Below, one piece after another: positions 184 through 7,879 of a stretch of 34,065 nucleotides of DNA. The translations under genes were made by a program, and so were the position numbers. The stretch's first letter is position 1; each line of letters starts with the position of its first letter. This stretch comes from a virus. Under the pieces are notes generated by a model. The model was not told where the DNA came from. It was given only the letters and a program-made list of their open reading frames with translations, and did no database searches. The stretch is taken from IMG/VR virus record IMGVR_UViG_3300046794_000137, positions 1-34,065 of that record; one strand, written 5' to 3'.

Positions 184-336
184 TTAGAATTCCGGTATGT
201 ATTCGGCCTGGTACGCTTCTGCTGGGGTCTGTCCGCGCGCCCAGTTGTATGCTTCCCACATTTCGGGCTGACCGGGCTTATGTCCGTGCTCGGCGGCCAG
301 GGTCAGCAGCTCGGCCCACCACTGGTCCCATGTCAC
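184..336 (-). CDS. Small acidic hypothetical protein (50 aa)
   Basis: A 50-residue ORF reading VTWDQWWAEL... and rich in Trp, Glu and Ala. The start is taken as GTG at 336-334 because AAAGGAGG lies a few bases upstream, and because this GTG overlaps the TGA stop of the methyltransferase gene (GTGA), a typical translationally coupled junction. A longer in-frame start at 369 would lie inside the methyltransferase gene and has no binding site. No domain is recognised. It may be a small partner of the methyltransferase, but only the coupling suggests this. Confidence 0.65.
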   Translation of the reverse strand: MTWDQWWAELLTLAAEHGHKPGQPEMWEAYNWARGQTPAEAYQAEYIPEF

Positions 337-2402
337 GCTGCCTCCTTTCGCTGAGCTGAAACGCGCCAAGGATCATTCGCTCGCGCCAGCGCTGCCATGG
401 GCGGCGGTGACACACCGTTGCCGCACATGTGCACCTTCTGAGTGATCGTGAACGGCACACCATCGGCGCCGAAATCGATGATGTAGTCACGCGGGAAGCC
501 TTGGGCCCGGTACAGCTCCGGCGGCTTGATCATCCGCAGGCAGATGTCGACGATCACATAGGGTGTGCCCTTGACCAGCACAGTCACCAGGCCCAGACGG
601 TCCTTGGTGGTGATGGTCGGCGAAGGACTGTCGCACCCGCTGACGTTGTCTGTGCCGTAGTAGCTGATCAGGAAGGCCGCGACCCGCAGCGCGCCCGCTT
701 CATGCTCTGGCGACAAGCGCAGCGAAACCACCGAGCTTTTGCCGCCACCGCCTGCAGTGATGGTCGGTGCCGGTTCGTTCAGGGCTTGGCCGACGCTGTT
801 GCCGAACTGGCGTTCCATGAACGCAGTGACCAAGCCGTGGTGCTGGCCGCCGGCGCTGATGGTGTGCAACGGCTCAGCCACGTCTCGGGCATCGCAATTG
901 CCGCGCAGGTGGACCAGTTGAGCCGCCACCAGCTGCTGCTGGCTGCCAGTGCTGGTGACGGTTGTCATCGGCTCGTCTGCGCCCTTGGCGACCGTGGTAT
1001 TGAAGCCGCCGTTCATCTGCGCGATGAATGCGGTTGCCAAGGCGTATTTCCCGCCAGAGGCCATGATCGTGCCCAGCGGTTTCGCCATGTCAGCTGTGCG
1101 CGGGGCACTACCTGGTTTATCGCCATTGCCCAGCTGGACCAGCGCAGCGGCGGCCAGACCTTTGTGGTTCTGCGTGAGGACCGTGCCGAGAGGTTGATCT
1201 ACCGGGGAGGGCTTGCCCGAGTATTCAGGACCACCAGTGCCGACCAGAACAGGGCTGATCAGTGTCAGTTCGCCCCGGTTGGCACAAGTGATCGTCGGCA
1301 GCGGCTCCAGGGGATCATTGATACGGTCGCTGCCCTGGTGAGTTGCCGGTGCAATGATCGGGCTGACAATCGAGAACGAACCGCCCTTGGGGTATGACGT
1401 GATGGTGCGCAGCGGCTCGTCCGTTGATTGGACGTTCCCAACGGACCAGTTGGCGATCGGCACGATGAAAGGGTTCGCGCTATCAATGACGAACTTCTTC
1501 ATGCCCTTGGCGATGCGCCGCAGGGTGGCCGGGGCCAGATCCTTCTTGCGCCCGAAGATGCTGCGGCCGAGGTCAGTGAAGTCGATGCATTCGGCGGCAG
1601 TGCGGTACTTCAGCTGACCCTTCGCGGGCTTTTTCGCGTGAGTAGGCTCAGGCCACACAATCGGCTGGCCATCGCAGCGAGCGAGCATGAACAGGCGCTC
1701 ACGGCTGGTTGGGGCACCGAAGTCGCAGGCCTTGATGATCCGCCATTCGACGACGTAGCCCATGCCTTCCAGCAGTGACACGAAACGGCGCCAGGTTGTG
1801 CCGCGGCGTTTTGGATCTGGCACCAAGAACTGCTGGCCGACCGGAACAATCTCGCCCGGAGCAGCCACCACCTTCTTGATGACTTCTTTGTTCTTCGGCC
1901 CCATGACTGTCACCAGCTTGATGACGCGGCCAGTTGCATGGTCCCGCTTCGCGATCAGCGGACCCCATTGTAGGATCTGTTTCACATTCTCCAGGCTGAT
2001 CACCCGGGGGCGCTTCTTGCCGCCCCACTTGAGGCCGATCCATGACAGGTTGCGAATTTCTCGTTTGCGCGGTTGCCCGCCGGCCGCCTGGCTGTGGTGG
2101 GTGCAGTCCGGCGACATATGGAACCAACCCACGGCACGGCCCCCACATTCCGTATCCGGGTCACCCTCGAAAACGTCCGTGGTGAAGTGCTTCGTGCCCG
2201 GGTGGTTGGCGGTGTGCATGCTGATCGCCGCCGGACTGTGGTTCTTTGCTACGTCGACCTTGCGGCCCAGGCCCATTTCCAGCCCGGTACCGGCGCCGCC
2301 ACCCCCACAGAAGAAGTCCACGACGATTTCATCGTCCTGAGGATCGAAGCCGAGGCCGTATTGCGTTTTGAAATCGAAGGGAGGTTTCTGAAATGCGGTC
2401 AT
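333..2402 (-). CDS. DNA (cytosine-5) methyltransferase with repeat-expanded target region
   Basis: A 689-residue C5-cytosine methyltransferase that would transfer a methyl group from S-adenosylmethionine to cytosine in DNA, probably protecting phage DNA from host restriction. Visible motifs: motif I DFFCGGGGAGTG (29-40, SAM binding), motif IV with the catalytic Cys in SPDCTHHS (97-104), motif VI SLENV (136-140), motif VIII-like SRERLF (233-238), and motif X CGNGVSPP (660-667). Between residues about 328 and 612, where target-recognition sequence is expected, a unit of the form (D/N)EPLxTIT followed by Gly-rich and hydrophobic residues recurs eight times. The protein is therefore much longer than a minimal C5 enzyme (about 330-400 aa). 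The start ATG has GAGG about 11 bases upstream. Family assignment is firm; the recognition sequence is unknown. Confidence 0.95.
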   Translation of the reverse strand: MTAFQKPPFDFKTQYGLGFDPQDDEIVVDFFCGGGGAGTGLEMGLGRKVDVAKNHSPAAISMHTANHPGTKHFTTDVFEGDPDTECGGRAVGWFHMSPDCTHHSQAAGGQPRKREIRNLSWIGLKWGGKKRPRVISLENVKQILQWGPLIAKRDHATGRVIKLVTVMGPKNKEVIKKVVAAPGEIVPVGQQFLVPDPKRRGTTWRRFVSLLEGMGYVVEWRIIKACDFGAPTSRERLFMLARCDGQPIVWPEPTHAKKPAKGQLKYRTAAECIDFTDLGRSIFGRKKDLAPATLRRIAKGMKKFVIDSANPFIVPIANWSVGNVQSTDEPLRTITSYPKGGSFSIVSPIIAPATHQGSDRINDPLEPLPTITCANRGELTLISPVLVGTGGPEYSGKPSPVDQPLGTVLTQNHKGLAAAALVQLGNGDKPGSAPRTADMAKPLGTIMASGGKYALATAFIAQMNGGFNTTVAKGADEPMTTVTSTGSQQQLVAAQLVHLRGNCDARDVAEPLHTISAGGQHHGLVTAFMERQFGNSVGQALNEPAPTITAGGGGKSSVVSLRLSPEHEAGALRVAAFLISYYGTDNVSGCDSPSPTITTKDRLGLVTVLVKGTPYVIVDICLRMIKPPELYRAQGFPRDYIIDFGADGVPFTITQKVHMCGNGVSPPPMAALARANDPWRVSAQRKEAA
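567..1421 (-). repeat. Eight degenerate repeats inside the methyltransferase
   Basis: Repeat cores start at residues 328 (DEPLRTIT), 366 (EPLPTIT), 402 (DQPLGTVLT), 440 (AKPLGTIM), 476 (DEPMTTVT), 509 (AEPLHTIS), 542 (NEPAPTIT) and 591 (DSPSPTIT). The spacing is about 33-38 residues, with a longer final step. Each core is followed by a Gly/polar turn and a short hydrophobic strand such as LVTAF or LVAAQL. The copies have diverged at DNA level, so this is an old protein-level expansion and not a recent tandem duplication. Confidence 0.85.
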
Positions 2403-2452
2403 GGGGCGTCCTCGCCTGGGTGGTGGCGTGATTCGTTAAGGTGGGGGTTGGA

Positions 2453-3028
2453 TCAGAAGCCGTCGCCGCGATCCTTCCGGGCGGGCCTTGCTGCATTGAG
2501 GGCTGATTTGTAACTGGCCTTGGCATCCTTTTTGGCCGTGCACCAATCGCCAGCGACCTCTACCGACTCACAGAGCTGCAGGTATTCTTGGCTATGAAAG
2601 CGGCTGACGTTGCGGCGCCTGTAGCGAACCATTCTGTATTCGCGATTTCCGCGTCCGCTGCGTTCCTGATATCTAGGCTGATTGATGCCAAGAAATTCGG
2701 GGAAGCTATCGTAGCCGCCGTCCGTATCCAGATAGGCGTCGAAGTTCGTTCGCTTGGGCGGGGGAGGCAGACTGGCAATGGCCACTCGCTTCCCATCCTC
2801 GGTTGACTGCCAGACAACTTCATCTGCGGGGCAGAAGGCCGGGGCCTTGGTGCGCACCATCAAGCCAGCACCGACCATCGCATCGAGGTCTGGCGCTTCA
2901 GGCGCGTCTACGGTGGTGCCGTAGAAGTTTCGATAGGGGTGGCGTCCACGTTCGCCCAGCTCAGGACGAAGGCCAAGCGTGTGCCACAGCAGCCCGACCT
3001 GGGCATCGGATATCTGGCCTTGGATCAT
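2453..3028 (-). CDS. Hypothetical phage protein (191 aa)
   Basis: The start is ATG at 3028-3026 with GGAG about 9 bases upstream; the open frame extends further up to 3178 without a supported start. The protein begins MIQGQISDAQVGLLWHTLGL, has a mixed alpha/beta composition, a basic middle (residues about 138-152, rich in Arg and Tyr) and a Lys/Arg-rich C-terminal tail (AKKDAKASYKSALNAARPAR), so nucleic-acid binding is possible. There is no signal peptide or membrane helix. It sits 50 bases upstream of the methyltransferase in the same operon. I do not recognise the family. Confidence 0.75.
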   Translation of the reverse strand: MIQGQISDAQVGLLWHTLGLRPELGERGRHPYRNFYGTTVDAPEAPDLDAMVGAGLMVRTKAPAFCPADEVVWQSTEDGKRVAIASLPPPPKRTNFDAYLDTDGGYDSFPEFLGINQPRYQERSGRGNREYRMVRYRRRNVSRFHSQEYLQLCESVEVAGDWCTAKKDAKASYKSALNAARPARKDRGDGF

Positions 3029-3125
3029 CAGCTTTCTCCAGGGTGCGCGCCGCCCTCCATGAGGATGGTGGCAATTTGGATTGGTTGGGGTTAGATTCTC
3101 AGCTGACCTATCGGCAGGGATGCTC

Positions 3126-3698
3126 ATGAAAGAAATATTACTTGTACCCGCAGTCGCTACATTGATTGCTTGCGTCATTGCGGGAGTTGTGTCATTGGTG
3201 GTTTCGATCCTAACTAAAGATCAGAAAACATCTGAGTTTCGGCAAGCCTGGATTGATGGTCTGCGCAACGATGTCTCGCAATTAGTTGGGCATCACCAAG
3301 TATTGATTCACCTTGTAAGTATCCTGAAGCGAAAAACGAAAGAAGACGCTGTAGAGTTCTTTTTAGCTAATCAAAAAGAGTGGTTAGAAATCTGCATGCT
3401 GGAATCGCGAATTCGGTTGAGGCTAAATCCACAGGAACATGGGGCAATCTTAAAGTTATTGGCCGATGAGCTAAAGGATCAAGGCGAAAACGGAGCAGTA
3501 TGGAAAGAGCGTGCCGAGAGTATATGCCAAGAGGCCCAGGTCATCTTGAAGTCTGAATGGGAACGAGTGAAGGTTGGTGAGCCATCCATCATCTGGCTCC
3601 GACGCTGCTCAAAGCTTGCAATATTCGCCGCCTTATTACTGGCGGCAGTTTTGATTTTTAACTATTTCTGTGTTGGATTCGAATGTTTTAAGCCCTGA
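3126..3698 (+). CDS. Two-helix membrane protein, probable prophage cargo
   Basis: A 190-residue protein with a hydrophobic N-terminal segment (about 4-29), a soluble alpha-helical middle of about 130 residues, and a second hydrophobic segment near the C-terminus (about 162-183) ending in a short tail with two Cys. Just after the first helix is an FRQAWIDGLRND stretch; from memory, RQxWIxxLR motifs recur in small uncharacterised bacterial membrane proteins. ATG at 3126 is preferred over ATG at 3120 because AGGGA is well spaced for it. The gene is on the opposite strand to the surrounding early-left operon and is visibly AT-richer with non-Pseudomonas codons, which points to separate acquisition. 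A role in superinfection exclusion or defence is inference only. Confidence 0.75.
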   Translation: MKEILLVPAVATLIACVIAGVVSLVVSILTKDQKTSEFRQAWIDGLRNDVSQLVGHHQVLIHLVSILKRKTKEDAVEFFLANQKEWLEICMLESRIRLRLNPQEHGAILKLLADELKDQGENGAVWKERAESICQEAQVILKSEWERVKVGEPSIIWLRRCSKLAIFAALLLAAVLIFNYFCVGFECFKP

Positions 3699-3808
3699 CC
3701 CTTTGGGCTAACGACGCCCTCCTGAGAATGGTGCTACTTTGCTTTAAGGTGGCAGGTTGGATGCCTAATAGGCGTTACGCAGTATTGAAATTATAAGGTG
3801 GGAGCTGT

Positions 3809-4486
3809 ATGGCTTTTAATTGGAAGTGCAAGTATTGTGGAAATCACTCTACCGTAACTAATAACAATTACATGGTGGATCATAGTAGGTTTCATCTGAA
3901 TAACTATACCGGCAAAGAACTGTTATTCAGAATTTTTACGGTGGTTTGTCCGAATGATGATTGCAAGAAAATAACTGCTAGCTCAAGTTTGGGGTACGCT
4001 ATTCTCGCGGATGGTAAATGGCAACTCGGACCTGACGCAATTCAGGAGTGGAATCTACTACCTTCAAGTGAGGCACTGGTATTTCCGGATTACGTACCTG
4101 CTCCGATTTTGGCGGATTACGAGGAAGCATGTAAAATCAGAGATCTAAGCCCAAAGGCCTCCGCTACTCTTTCCAGGCGTTGCCTCCAAGGCATTATCCG
4201 CGATTTTTGGGACGTGTCGAAACCGAGGTTATTCGACGAAGTTGAAGCTATTAGGGAGATGGTTGATATAGATACGTGGTCTGCGATAGATGCAGTGAGG
4301 CAGATTGGCAATATTGGGGCTCACATGGAGCGTGATATAAACGTAATAATTGATGTTGATTCAGAGGAGGCACAACTCTTAATAGGCTTGATTGAACTGC
4401 TTATTAAAGATTGGTACATTGCTCGACACAAAAGAAAGGAACATCTCAGAACAATAATTGAAATTGCCAAAGTGAAAAAACTTTAA
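3809..4486 (+). CDS. DUF4145 domain protein with N-terminal zinc ribbon
   Basis: A 225-residue protein. The N-terminus carries WKCKYCGNHS and, further on, CPNDDC, a four-Cys arrangement typical of a zinc ribbon (residues about 7-53). The C-terminal half contains the DUF4145 signature: DYEEACKIRDLSPKASATL at about 108-126, then SRRCLQGIIRDFW, and a later GNIGAHMERD segment. DUF4145 occurs alone or fused to restriction and helicase proteins and is often found in defence or mobile contexts; its biochemical role is not settled. The start has a strong GTGGGAG site. It lies 110 bases downstream of the membrane-protein gene in the same direction and has the same AT-rich composition, so the two probably arrived together. 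Confidence 0.85.
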   Translation: MAFNWKCKYCGNHSTVTNNNYMVDHSRFHLNNYTGKELLFRIFTVVCPNDDCKKITASSSLGYAILADGKWQLGPDAIQEWNLLPSSEALVFPDYVPAPILADYEEACKIRDLSPKASATLSRRCLQGIIRDFWDVSKPRLFDEVEAIREMVDIDTWSAIDAVRQIGNIGAHMERDINVIIDVDSEEAQLLIGLIELLIKDWYIARHKRKEHLRTIIEIAKVKKL

Positions 4487-4500
4487 AATTCATCGGTTGA

Positions 4501-4824
4501 TCAATCGTTCGGTGTGCGCTTTAGTTCTTTGCGGCTCGCGTTCTCAAACTGACGCGCTAGCCTTGGCGTTACAACGAAACCTGACGGGTCAGCCTTCAGA
4601 ATGCGCGCCGCATCCTCGCGGCTGGCCCTGATCAGGTGCAGAATTGCCGTCTGAAACACTTCCTGCTGCTGGCTAAAGCCGTGCTCTTTCATTAAGCGCT
4701 TAAGCCCAGCCTTCACGCCTTCTGGCACATCCACCTTCAGCGTTTCCACGCCCAGGGCTGCCTTCTGTTCCGCCTGGCGTTTGCGGTAATCGCTGGCGTG
4801 TTTCGCTGCTGCTGTCTTCGCCAT
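4501..4824 (-). CDS. Small probable DNA-binding protein (ribbon-helix-helix-like)
   Basis: 107 residues. A basic N-terminus (AKTAAAKHASDYRKRQAEQK) is followed by a short strand-like LKVDVPEGVKAGLKRL and then helices MKEHGFSQQQEVFQTAILHLI, an order resembling ribbon-helix-helix repressors, in which the strand contacts DNA and the helices dimerise. The start ATG has GAGG about 8 bases upstream. It belongs to the leftward operon and converges with the DUF4145 gene, their ends only 15 bases apart. The RHH assignment is tentative; a phage regulatory role would follow from it. Confidence 0.7.
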   Translation of the reverse strand: MAKTAAAKHASDYRKRQAEQKAALGVETLKVDVPEGVKAGLKRLMKEHGFSQQQEVFQTAILHLIRASREDAARILKADPSGFVVTPRLARQFENASRKELKRTPND

Positions 4825-6986: not shown

Positions 6987-7015
6987 AGTAAACAATACGT
7001 TTATAAACAGGTCAA
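6987..7015 (-). promoter_or_regulatory. Leftward early promoter PL
   Basis: On the minus strand, TTGACC (7015-7010) and TTTACT (6992-6987) are separated by exactly 17 bases, and the spacer contains the palindrome GTTTATAAAC. The layout mirrors PR on the other side of cI. CI or Cro bound at the operator would block it. Confidence 0.7.
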
Positions 7016-7038
7016 CACATTTTGTTTATTATGTTTAC
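6988..7038. promoter_or_regulatory. Left operator cluster OL
   Basis: Half-sites of the form GTTTA(T/C) occur at 6988-6993 (as GTAAAC), 6999-7008 (perfect palindrome GTTTATAAAC), 7024-7029 and 7033-7038. The same motif fills the region on the other side of cI (OR), which defines it as the repressor binding sequence. Confidence 0.75.
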
Positions 7039-7043
7039 AGGCC

Positions 7044-7067
7044 AAAAAAAACCCGCCAAAGGCGGGT
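7044..7067 (-). terminator. Intrinsic terminator of cI
   Basis: On the minus strand ACCCGCC (7067-7061) pairs with GGCGGGT (7057-7051) around a 3-base loop, followed by a run of eight T residues (7051-7044). It ends the repressor transcript before it enters OL/PL. Confidence 0.9.
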
Positions 7068-7117
7068 GGTTGTTACGGATTAGGAGTAGGCGCGACGTAG
7101 TGAATTTGTGCTGATCG

Positions 7118-7879
7118 CTAGCGGGCGAACATTCCCCACCAGAACACATGACCTAAAATCGTTAGATTTTGATCCTGCATATCCTGGAACGAATAGTCCT
7201 CATCAAGGTAGTCATCGCGGTTGAAGCTTCGCAGACGGATCCCGGCGGGCAATCTATAGACTTGCTTGATTCGCAGCTGGCCATTGTGATTGAGGGCGTA
7301 TAGGTCTCCGTCGACAATATCACCAAGAGAGTTTTTCCCGGTGTTGATGCCAACTGTGGCTCCGTCGCGAAGAACGGGCAGCATGCTGCTACCTCGGACC
7401 ACAACACATCGCGCTTTATCAAATTGAACGCCGTTCTGCCTCAAGCTTCGCTTGCCAAACCTCAGCTGAGCATTGTTGCCTTCTTCAATCGCAAAGCGGC
7501 CCGATCCAGCGGCCAGCTCAACCTCCCTCAAGAATGGAACGGACACCTCGTCATCCTCTAGCGGAGTGGAGTCATCCCATTCCCGTATTGGAACAACGCC
7601 AAGCGTAGACAGTTCGTCATTGATCTCCGTCTCCCGCCTCCAGGCGGCGCCGCTGAGGGAGTCAGCGTCTATTTGCGGGCCCTCTCCGGAATGCAGCCAT
7701 TCAATGAATACGCCCAGCCGGGTTGCTACCGGAAGCAGCGATTTTCCCGGAACTCCACGAATGAACCAGTTGTTCAGCGTCTGCGTAGATACGCCGAGCA
7801 TGGCTGCCATCTCGGTAGGACTGATTTGTCTGTTTTTCAGGATTTCCCTGAGGCGATCGCCGGAATGCTGAGTAGTCAT
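7118..7879 (-). CDS. cI: CI-type repressor, self-cleaving (S24/LexA-like)
   Basis: 253 residues. The N-terminal XRE helix-turn-helix (about 8-60, with SPTEMAAMLGVSTQTLNNW) would bind the flanking operators. The C-terminal S24 peptidase-like domain contains the Ala-Gly cleavage site (A124-G125 in ELAAGSG), the nucleophile Ser165 in RGSSM and the general-base Lys205 in RIKQVY, so it should self-cleave on RecA filaments after DNA damage and induce lytic growth. ATG 7879 is chosen; a TTG two codons earlier (7885) is also possible. No clear ribosome binding site precedes it and the start sits inside a GTTTATG half-site, so the maintenance transcript may be leaderless or nearly so, as for lambda cI. 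It is divergent from cro and flanked by OL and OR. Confidence 0.95.
   Translation of the reverse strand: MTTQHSGDRLREILKNRQISPTEMAAMLGVSTQTLNNWFIRGVPGKSLLPVATRLGVFIEWLHSGEGPQIDADSLSGAAWRRETEINDELSTLGVVPIREWDDSTPLEDDEVSVPFLREVELAAGSGRFAIEEGNNAQLRFGKRSLRQNGVQFDKARCVVVRGSSMLPVLRDGATVGINTGKNSLGDIVDGDLYALNHNGQLRIKQVYRLPAGIRLRSFNRDDYLDEDYSFQDMQDQNLTILGHVFWWGMFAR

Follow-up and report, generated by a model that had tools for sequence, protein, structure and literature searches.

Stacked cargo in a Pseudomonas-type temperate phage: two probably independent genes in one slot, one of them likely encoding a single-gene defence protein of PD-T7-4/RAZR type

Introduction

RAZR is a ring-activated zinc-finger RNase. 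The structure of the RAZR:GP77 complex (PDB 9y9c) contains 24 copies of a 219-aa DUF4145 chain. PD-T7-4 is an E. coli defence system that was found by functional selection and validated experimentally (Vassallo et al. 2022, PMC9519451). Anantharaman et al. (2013, PMC3710099) described DUF4145 as a HEPN family that occurs in defence contexts. In this group, taken together with BxaP (PMC10799925), many members carry fused restriction, helicase or HEAT-like modules. At the genome level, P2 and other prophages have defence hotspots, in which one place of the genome holds interchangeable and often defensive cargo (PMC9519451).

The window analysed here is the whole 34,065-base stretch of a virus record. 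It contains a DUF4145 gene next to a membrane protein gene, named memA in the following. An earlier note, made from the sequence alone, had put the two genes forward as a candidate for an undescribed defence system of a membrane effector and a DUF4145 sensor.

Results and Discussion

The phage and its cargo slot

The window represents a temperate siphophage with Pseudomonas relatives. It encodes a CI/S24 repressor, an Ant antirepressor, O-like and P-like replication proteins and an integrase, together with terminase, portal, a Clp-type head protease, capsid and tape measure. To Pseudomonas phages, its middle and late genes show matches of 73–81%. A minus-strand operon with genes for a methyltransferase, p241, p107, p104 and p96 is split by two AT-rich plus-strand genes, memA and the DUF4145 gene. 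The features of this region are:

2453–3028, minus strand: p241 (phrog_21796), flanking gene; the phrog match starts at residue 57 of the long ORF
3047–3091, plus strand: boundary element copy 1, upstream of memA; best consensus match of the whole window, with a blastn match to related phages
3126–3698, plus strand: memA, 190 aa; transmembrane helix, helical bundle, transmembrane helix; conserved unnamed phage family
3712–3752, plus strand: boundary element copy 2, degenerate; in the gap between memA and the DUF4145 gene, upstream of the latter
3809–4486, plus strand: DUF4145 gene, 225 aa; zinc ribbon (C7, C10, C47, C52) and HEPN domain; PD-T7-4/RAZR family
4501–4824, minus strand: p107 (phrog_5439), flanking gene, convergent with the cargo

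The adjacent AT-rich pair running against the surrounding operon, as described in the earlier note, was confirmed by strand and composition. The GC content is 44.7% for memA and 41.7% for the DUF4145 gene, compared with 59% for the window. GC3 values are 46% and 41%, against 60–76% in the seven other window genes measured. Judged from the phrog match, the true start of p241 is likely a downstream ATG at about 3028, which places boundary element copy 1 within the p241 leader. The methyltransferase gene (333–2402, minus strand) encodes a C5-cytosine methyltransferase of 689 aa (phrog_116). Its conserved motifs are split by a long middle part with repeats like 'DEPLRTITS' and 'DQPLGTVLT'.

The DUF4145 protein belongs to the PD-T7-4/RAZR family

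The four-Cys zinc-ribbon DUF4145 protein of the earlier note is firmly supported by the cysteines C7, C10, C47 and C52 and by the Pfam match (PF13643, E=6.3e-9). Further matches are phrog_1305, named 'DNA binding protein' in PHROGs (E=1.3e-32), and the PADLOC model of PD-T7-4 (PDLC04109, E=1.4e-10), aligned over residues 5–212 of the protein and 14–190 of the 211 model positions. All 63 aligned relatives match the PD-T7-4 model. Matches to tyrosine phosphatases in the PDB were discarded as chance (E of 0.1 or more). The closest solved relative is RAZR in PDB 9y9c. Its HEPN-domain segment, taken from the 9y9c alignment, matches the PD-T7-4 model with E=3e-69 and matching numbering (64–193). RAZR and PD-T7-4 thus form one family and, by this sequence match, are probably the same protein.

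The window protein shares with PD-T7-4/RAZR the zinc-ribbon N-terminus, the HEPN ribonuclease-family C-terminus, the single-gene organisation, a mobile-element context and a profile match over its full length. It differs by a low identity to RAZR (about 19% in the structural alignment) and by its location: PD-T7-4/RAZR overlaps an integrase gene, whereas the window gene sits in a phage cargo slot. With this identity and a PD-T7-4 match far weaker than that of RAZR itself, the window protein is a distant branch, and its trigger or substrate may differ from those of RAZR. Members of phrog_1305, such as gp7 of Streptococcus phage SM1, are closer (43–48% identity) and have the same domain layout. 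Unlike the window gene, the members in Firmicutes phages are found in the repressor/integrase module, which DUF4145 relatives adjoin in Streptococcus phages. HEPN domain and defence contexts are shared with BxaP and the DUF4145 HEPN proteins, many of which carry fused modules, but the window protein is a short zinc-ribbon form.

An AlphaFold2 model of the protein (pLDDT 92) has a beta-rich part at residues 3–84 and a helical part at residues 98–224. Only the loop that holds the motif histidine and the residues directly following it is poorly predicted. In the structural comparison, ranks 1–16 are all HEPN-containing proteins, led by 2hsb (Z 11.4, 110 residues, rmsd 3.3), 1ufb (Z 10.3) and 3o10 (Z 10.2); Csm6 and MntA-HepT appear further down the list. 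PDB 9y9c aligned structurally over residues 1–201.

The zinc ligands and the putative active site are conserved. In ten relatives, found by tblastn without motif patterns except for L002, the invariant residues are C7, C10, C47, C52, R164, G167, N168 and H172. C7, C10, C47, C52, G167, N168 and H172 were again invariant in 63 relatives; as this larger set was gathered with patterns including GNIGAH, the cysteines alone provide an independent test in it. The motif R164-x2-G167-N168-x3-H172 (R-x7-H, RxxGNxxxH) has its counterpart, with the same spacing, in CRIVGNQAVH of the 9y9c chain. The published HEPN motif is Rx4-6H (PMC3710099); in the window protein the invariant arginine and histidine are seven residues apart, and N168-x3-H172 is present.

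Occurrence and neighbours of DUF4145 relatives

Members of this DUF4145 family are frequently carried as cargo by phages, plasmids and restriction-modification (RM) operons across many phyla. In 133 non-redundant groups, no regular partner of the DUF4145 gene was detected: the commonest neighbour family occurred in 13 groups. The commonest neighbours were HTH repressors and lysis genes. An E. coli prophage encodes a relative between lysis genes and terminase. A Fic gene and an Abi-family gene flank the DUF4145 gene of a 13-kb Acinetobacter plasmid (L043:3655–6923). By this genomic test, the DUF4145 gene would act as a single gene without an obligatory partner.

Short zinc-ribbon DUF4145 genes were also seen in or near apparent type I RM operons at five loci, one on an Asgard archaeal contig (L078) and four in bacterial genomes (L059, L061, L087, L098). 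This location recalls that of PrrC and RloC, which also adjoin RM genes. Tandem family members were present in L129: a second, different DUF4145 protein (2352–3065, plus strand; PF13643 E=9.6e-18, PD-T7-4 E=4e-6) is encoded just upstream of the window-type gene at 3512–4180.

A single-gene defence protein as the preferred explanation

The best explanation of the pair is that two independent morons have been stacked in a single slot of this Pseudomonas-type temperate phage and that the DUF4145 gene most likely encodes a defence protein like PD-T7-4/RAZR, working as a single gene. This explanation is held with good, though not high, confidence. Membership in this family makes a single-gene, infection-triggered RNase the most likely function. 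The suspicion of phage-borne defence cargo is thus upheld for the DUF4145 gene, whose family has an experimentally validated founder. The family is described as defensive, and its HEPN domain probably serves as effector and not just as a sensor.

The protein would be made in the lysogen, and its N-terminal zinc-ribbon beta domain would recognise a product of the incoming phage, which, judging from the RAZR:GP77 complex, is probably oligomeric. The HEPN domain would then cut RNA and stop the growth of the infected cell. Such an abortive infection would shield the prophage from competitors.

Alternatively, the DUF4145 protein could be a regulator or nucleic-acid-binding protein for the phage's own cycle. 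The PHROGs family name and the relatives near repressor genes agree with such a role. It is nevertheless unlikely, since the HEPN motif and the zinc ligands are fully conserved and the protein belongs to a validated defence family. Relatives beside Abi and Fic genes on plasmids and in apparent RM operons are outside any phage cycle, and the distribution is scattered, with relatives in 2 of 299 Pseudomonas genomes.

The membrane protein memA

The terminal membrane segments noted earlier for memA are evident from hydropathy (residues ~1–32 and ~158–189). An AlphaFold2 model (pLDDT 91) consists of a long N-terminal transmembrane helix, a helical bundle and a C-terminal transmembrane helix. From the charge distribution, the bundle is predicted to be cytoplasmic. 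The 37 relatives in viral contigs share a conserved core, K-x2-K-x-SEFRQAWID, RIRLRLN and LK-x-EW-x-x-VK-x-GE in the alignment; the invariance of EFRQAWID is partly a selection effect, as it was used as search pattern.

For memA, no family of Pfam, PHROG, NCBIfam or PADLOC passed. FliH (Pfam), PRK09554 (NCBIfam) and LeoBC (PADLOC) were rejected as weak matches (E 0.008–0.05), far below curated cut-offs where these exist. RTasSLATT was matched by one memA relative only (E=0.002) and the Pfam SLATT model by none of 24 relatives. SLATT-type effectors with two transmembrane segments have a topology unlike memA, whose segments stand at both ends. The fold search returned common helical bundles only, namely chemoreceptor sensor domains with a Z of 12, below the level trusted for bundles. 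Comparison with viral structures gave no significant match.

Could memA be the sole functional cargo, as a holin-like or superinfection-exclusion protein, and the DUF4145 gene a decaying passenger? The transmembrane-bundle-transmembrane model and PHROG holin matches to the transmembrane segment point that way, but the latter are weak (E 0.09) and at chance level. In E. coli, the memA relative stands by itself in the nin region of a lambdoid prophage, away from the lysis genes. Every invariant residue is present in the DUF4145 gene of the window, which has an intact ORF. Such a division of roles is therefore very unlikely. Under the preferred explanation of two independent morons, memA is a separate cargo gene and possibly an exclusion protein or membrane-acting effector.

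The two genes are exchanged independently

The co-occurrence of both genes was one check suggested by the earlier note. The loci surveyed, 169 for DUF4145 and 37 for memA, include IMG/VR records and metagenome contigs that are partly fragments; protein-found loci reach at most 6 kb to either side, and genes were called as longest ORFs. By tblastn, both genes were found together only in the window; memA was the direct neighbour at none of the 169 DUF4145-family loci. A profile search added one co-occurrence in two near-duplicate loci, where a distant memA relative is 2.2 kb and three genes away. The 299 Pseudomonas genomes encode DUF4145 relatives in 2 cases, memA relatives in 13 and both in none.

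Related phages have either gene in the same place. A p107-like gene directly follows memA alone in L007, L009 and L010, and DUF4145 alone in L128 and L129. The same arrangement for memA in L003, L004, L011 and L013 was judged from the look of the protein sequence. Just past the p107-like gene, L010 encodes a membrane ORF that resembles a putative abortive-infection protein (7012–7869, plus strand) and has no Pfam or PADLOC match at the cut-off used. In the window, memA and the DUF4145 gene are separated by 110 nt with an own boundary element copy.

A single operon in which the DUF4145 sensor activates the membrane effector would suit the adjacency, the common strand, the similarly low GC and the weak matches of a memA relative to the LeoBC and RTasSLATT membrane-effector models (E about 0.001–0.002), but is the least probable of the explanations, a faint chance, given the missing adjacency at all other loci, the sole and distant second co-occurrence, the Pseudomonas genomes, the independent swapping beside p107 and the separate upstream elements. 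The analysis removes the false lead of a new two-gene system and assigns the DUF4145 gene to a family whose role in defence is known and for which the structure of a complex has been solved.

A boundary element upstream of interchangeable genes

When flanks were compared, one shared sequence stood out, which precedes memA in some phages and DUF4145 in others. This element has a length of about 45 nt and the consensus GCGCCGCCCTCCGTGACCGGTGGTGGCAATTTGGTTTGGGTTGGGGT. Copy 1 in the window scored 64 against the 61-nt consensus (mean 15, sd 3.4). For the degenerate copy 2, none of 2000 first-order Markov shuffles of 3699–3808 aligned as well to copy 1, and 5 of 2000 aligned as well to the consensus. 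Both copies were found by gapped local alignment; a strict position matrix from 80 element loci had missed them due to small indels.

The strict pattern CCGCCCTCCGTGACNGGNGGNGGCAATTTG matched 95 stretches of viral contigs, of which 80 were analysed as loci (L216–L295). Conservation extends past the searched bases, with AGGCG before and GTTT..GTTGGGGTATTA after, and the genes on both sides vary. The downstream plus-strand ORFs usually start 20–60 nt past the element. Clustering by blastp gave 53 clusters, an upper estimate because some ORF picks may be spurious, among them one memA cluster of four. About 50 different gene families, several with recognised defence domains and most of them unnamed, thus stand behind the element in Pseudomonas-type phages. 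Among 51 cluster representatives, all drawn from element-flanked sites alone, Pfam identified one each of TIR, DUF4145/PD-T7-4, RelA/SpoT, putAbiC, AbiU2-HEPN, 8xMP and DUF2971; PADLOC identified TIR-TM, AbiP and several PDC models.

A hairpin was rejected as the function of the element, since neither the consensus nor the two copies in the window folded better than shuffled sequences (z +1.0 to −0.9). A scan for consensus promoters and terminators at the cargo starts gave nothing above shuffles. A text search of the available papers found no description of the element or of the slot.

From its sequence context, the element seems to mark a slot for swappable cargo that is a candidate for defence-related functions. 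The slot resembles the P2-type hotspots in holding interchangeable, often defensive, genes. Unlike them, it has a short conserved intergenic sequence as its mark, and the genes on either side of this sequence differ from case to case. It is an even call whether the sequence serves Pseudomonas temperate phages as a dedicated boundary element. As such, it would be a shared control and exchange region between the minus-strand gene and the divergent plus-strand cargo gene, located in a minus-strand operon, and homologous recombination via the element would swap or stack cargo. If true, the genes behind the element, including the memA family, would be a ready list of new phage-defence candidates. 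The element is the more useful result of this study, and screening for it offers an inexpensive route to new candidate defence genes of phages.

The strict pattern had no match in 114 genomes from the class of G002, also when two mismatches were allowed. The strict pattern occurred in 11 of the 299 Pseudomonas genomes and the reversed control in none. Among named phages, it was present in Pseudomonas phages only, plus one 'Bacteriophage sp.'. A second copy within 2.5 kb downstream was present in 4 of the 80 other loci; cargo stacking is thus not unique to the window phage.
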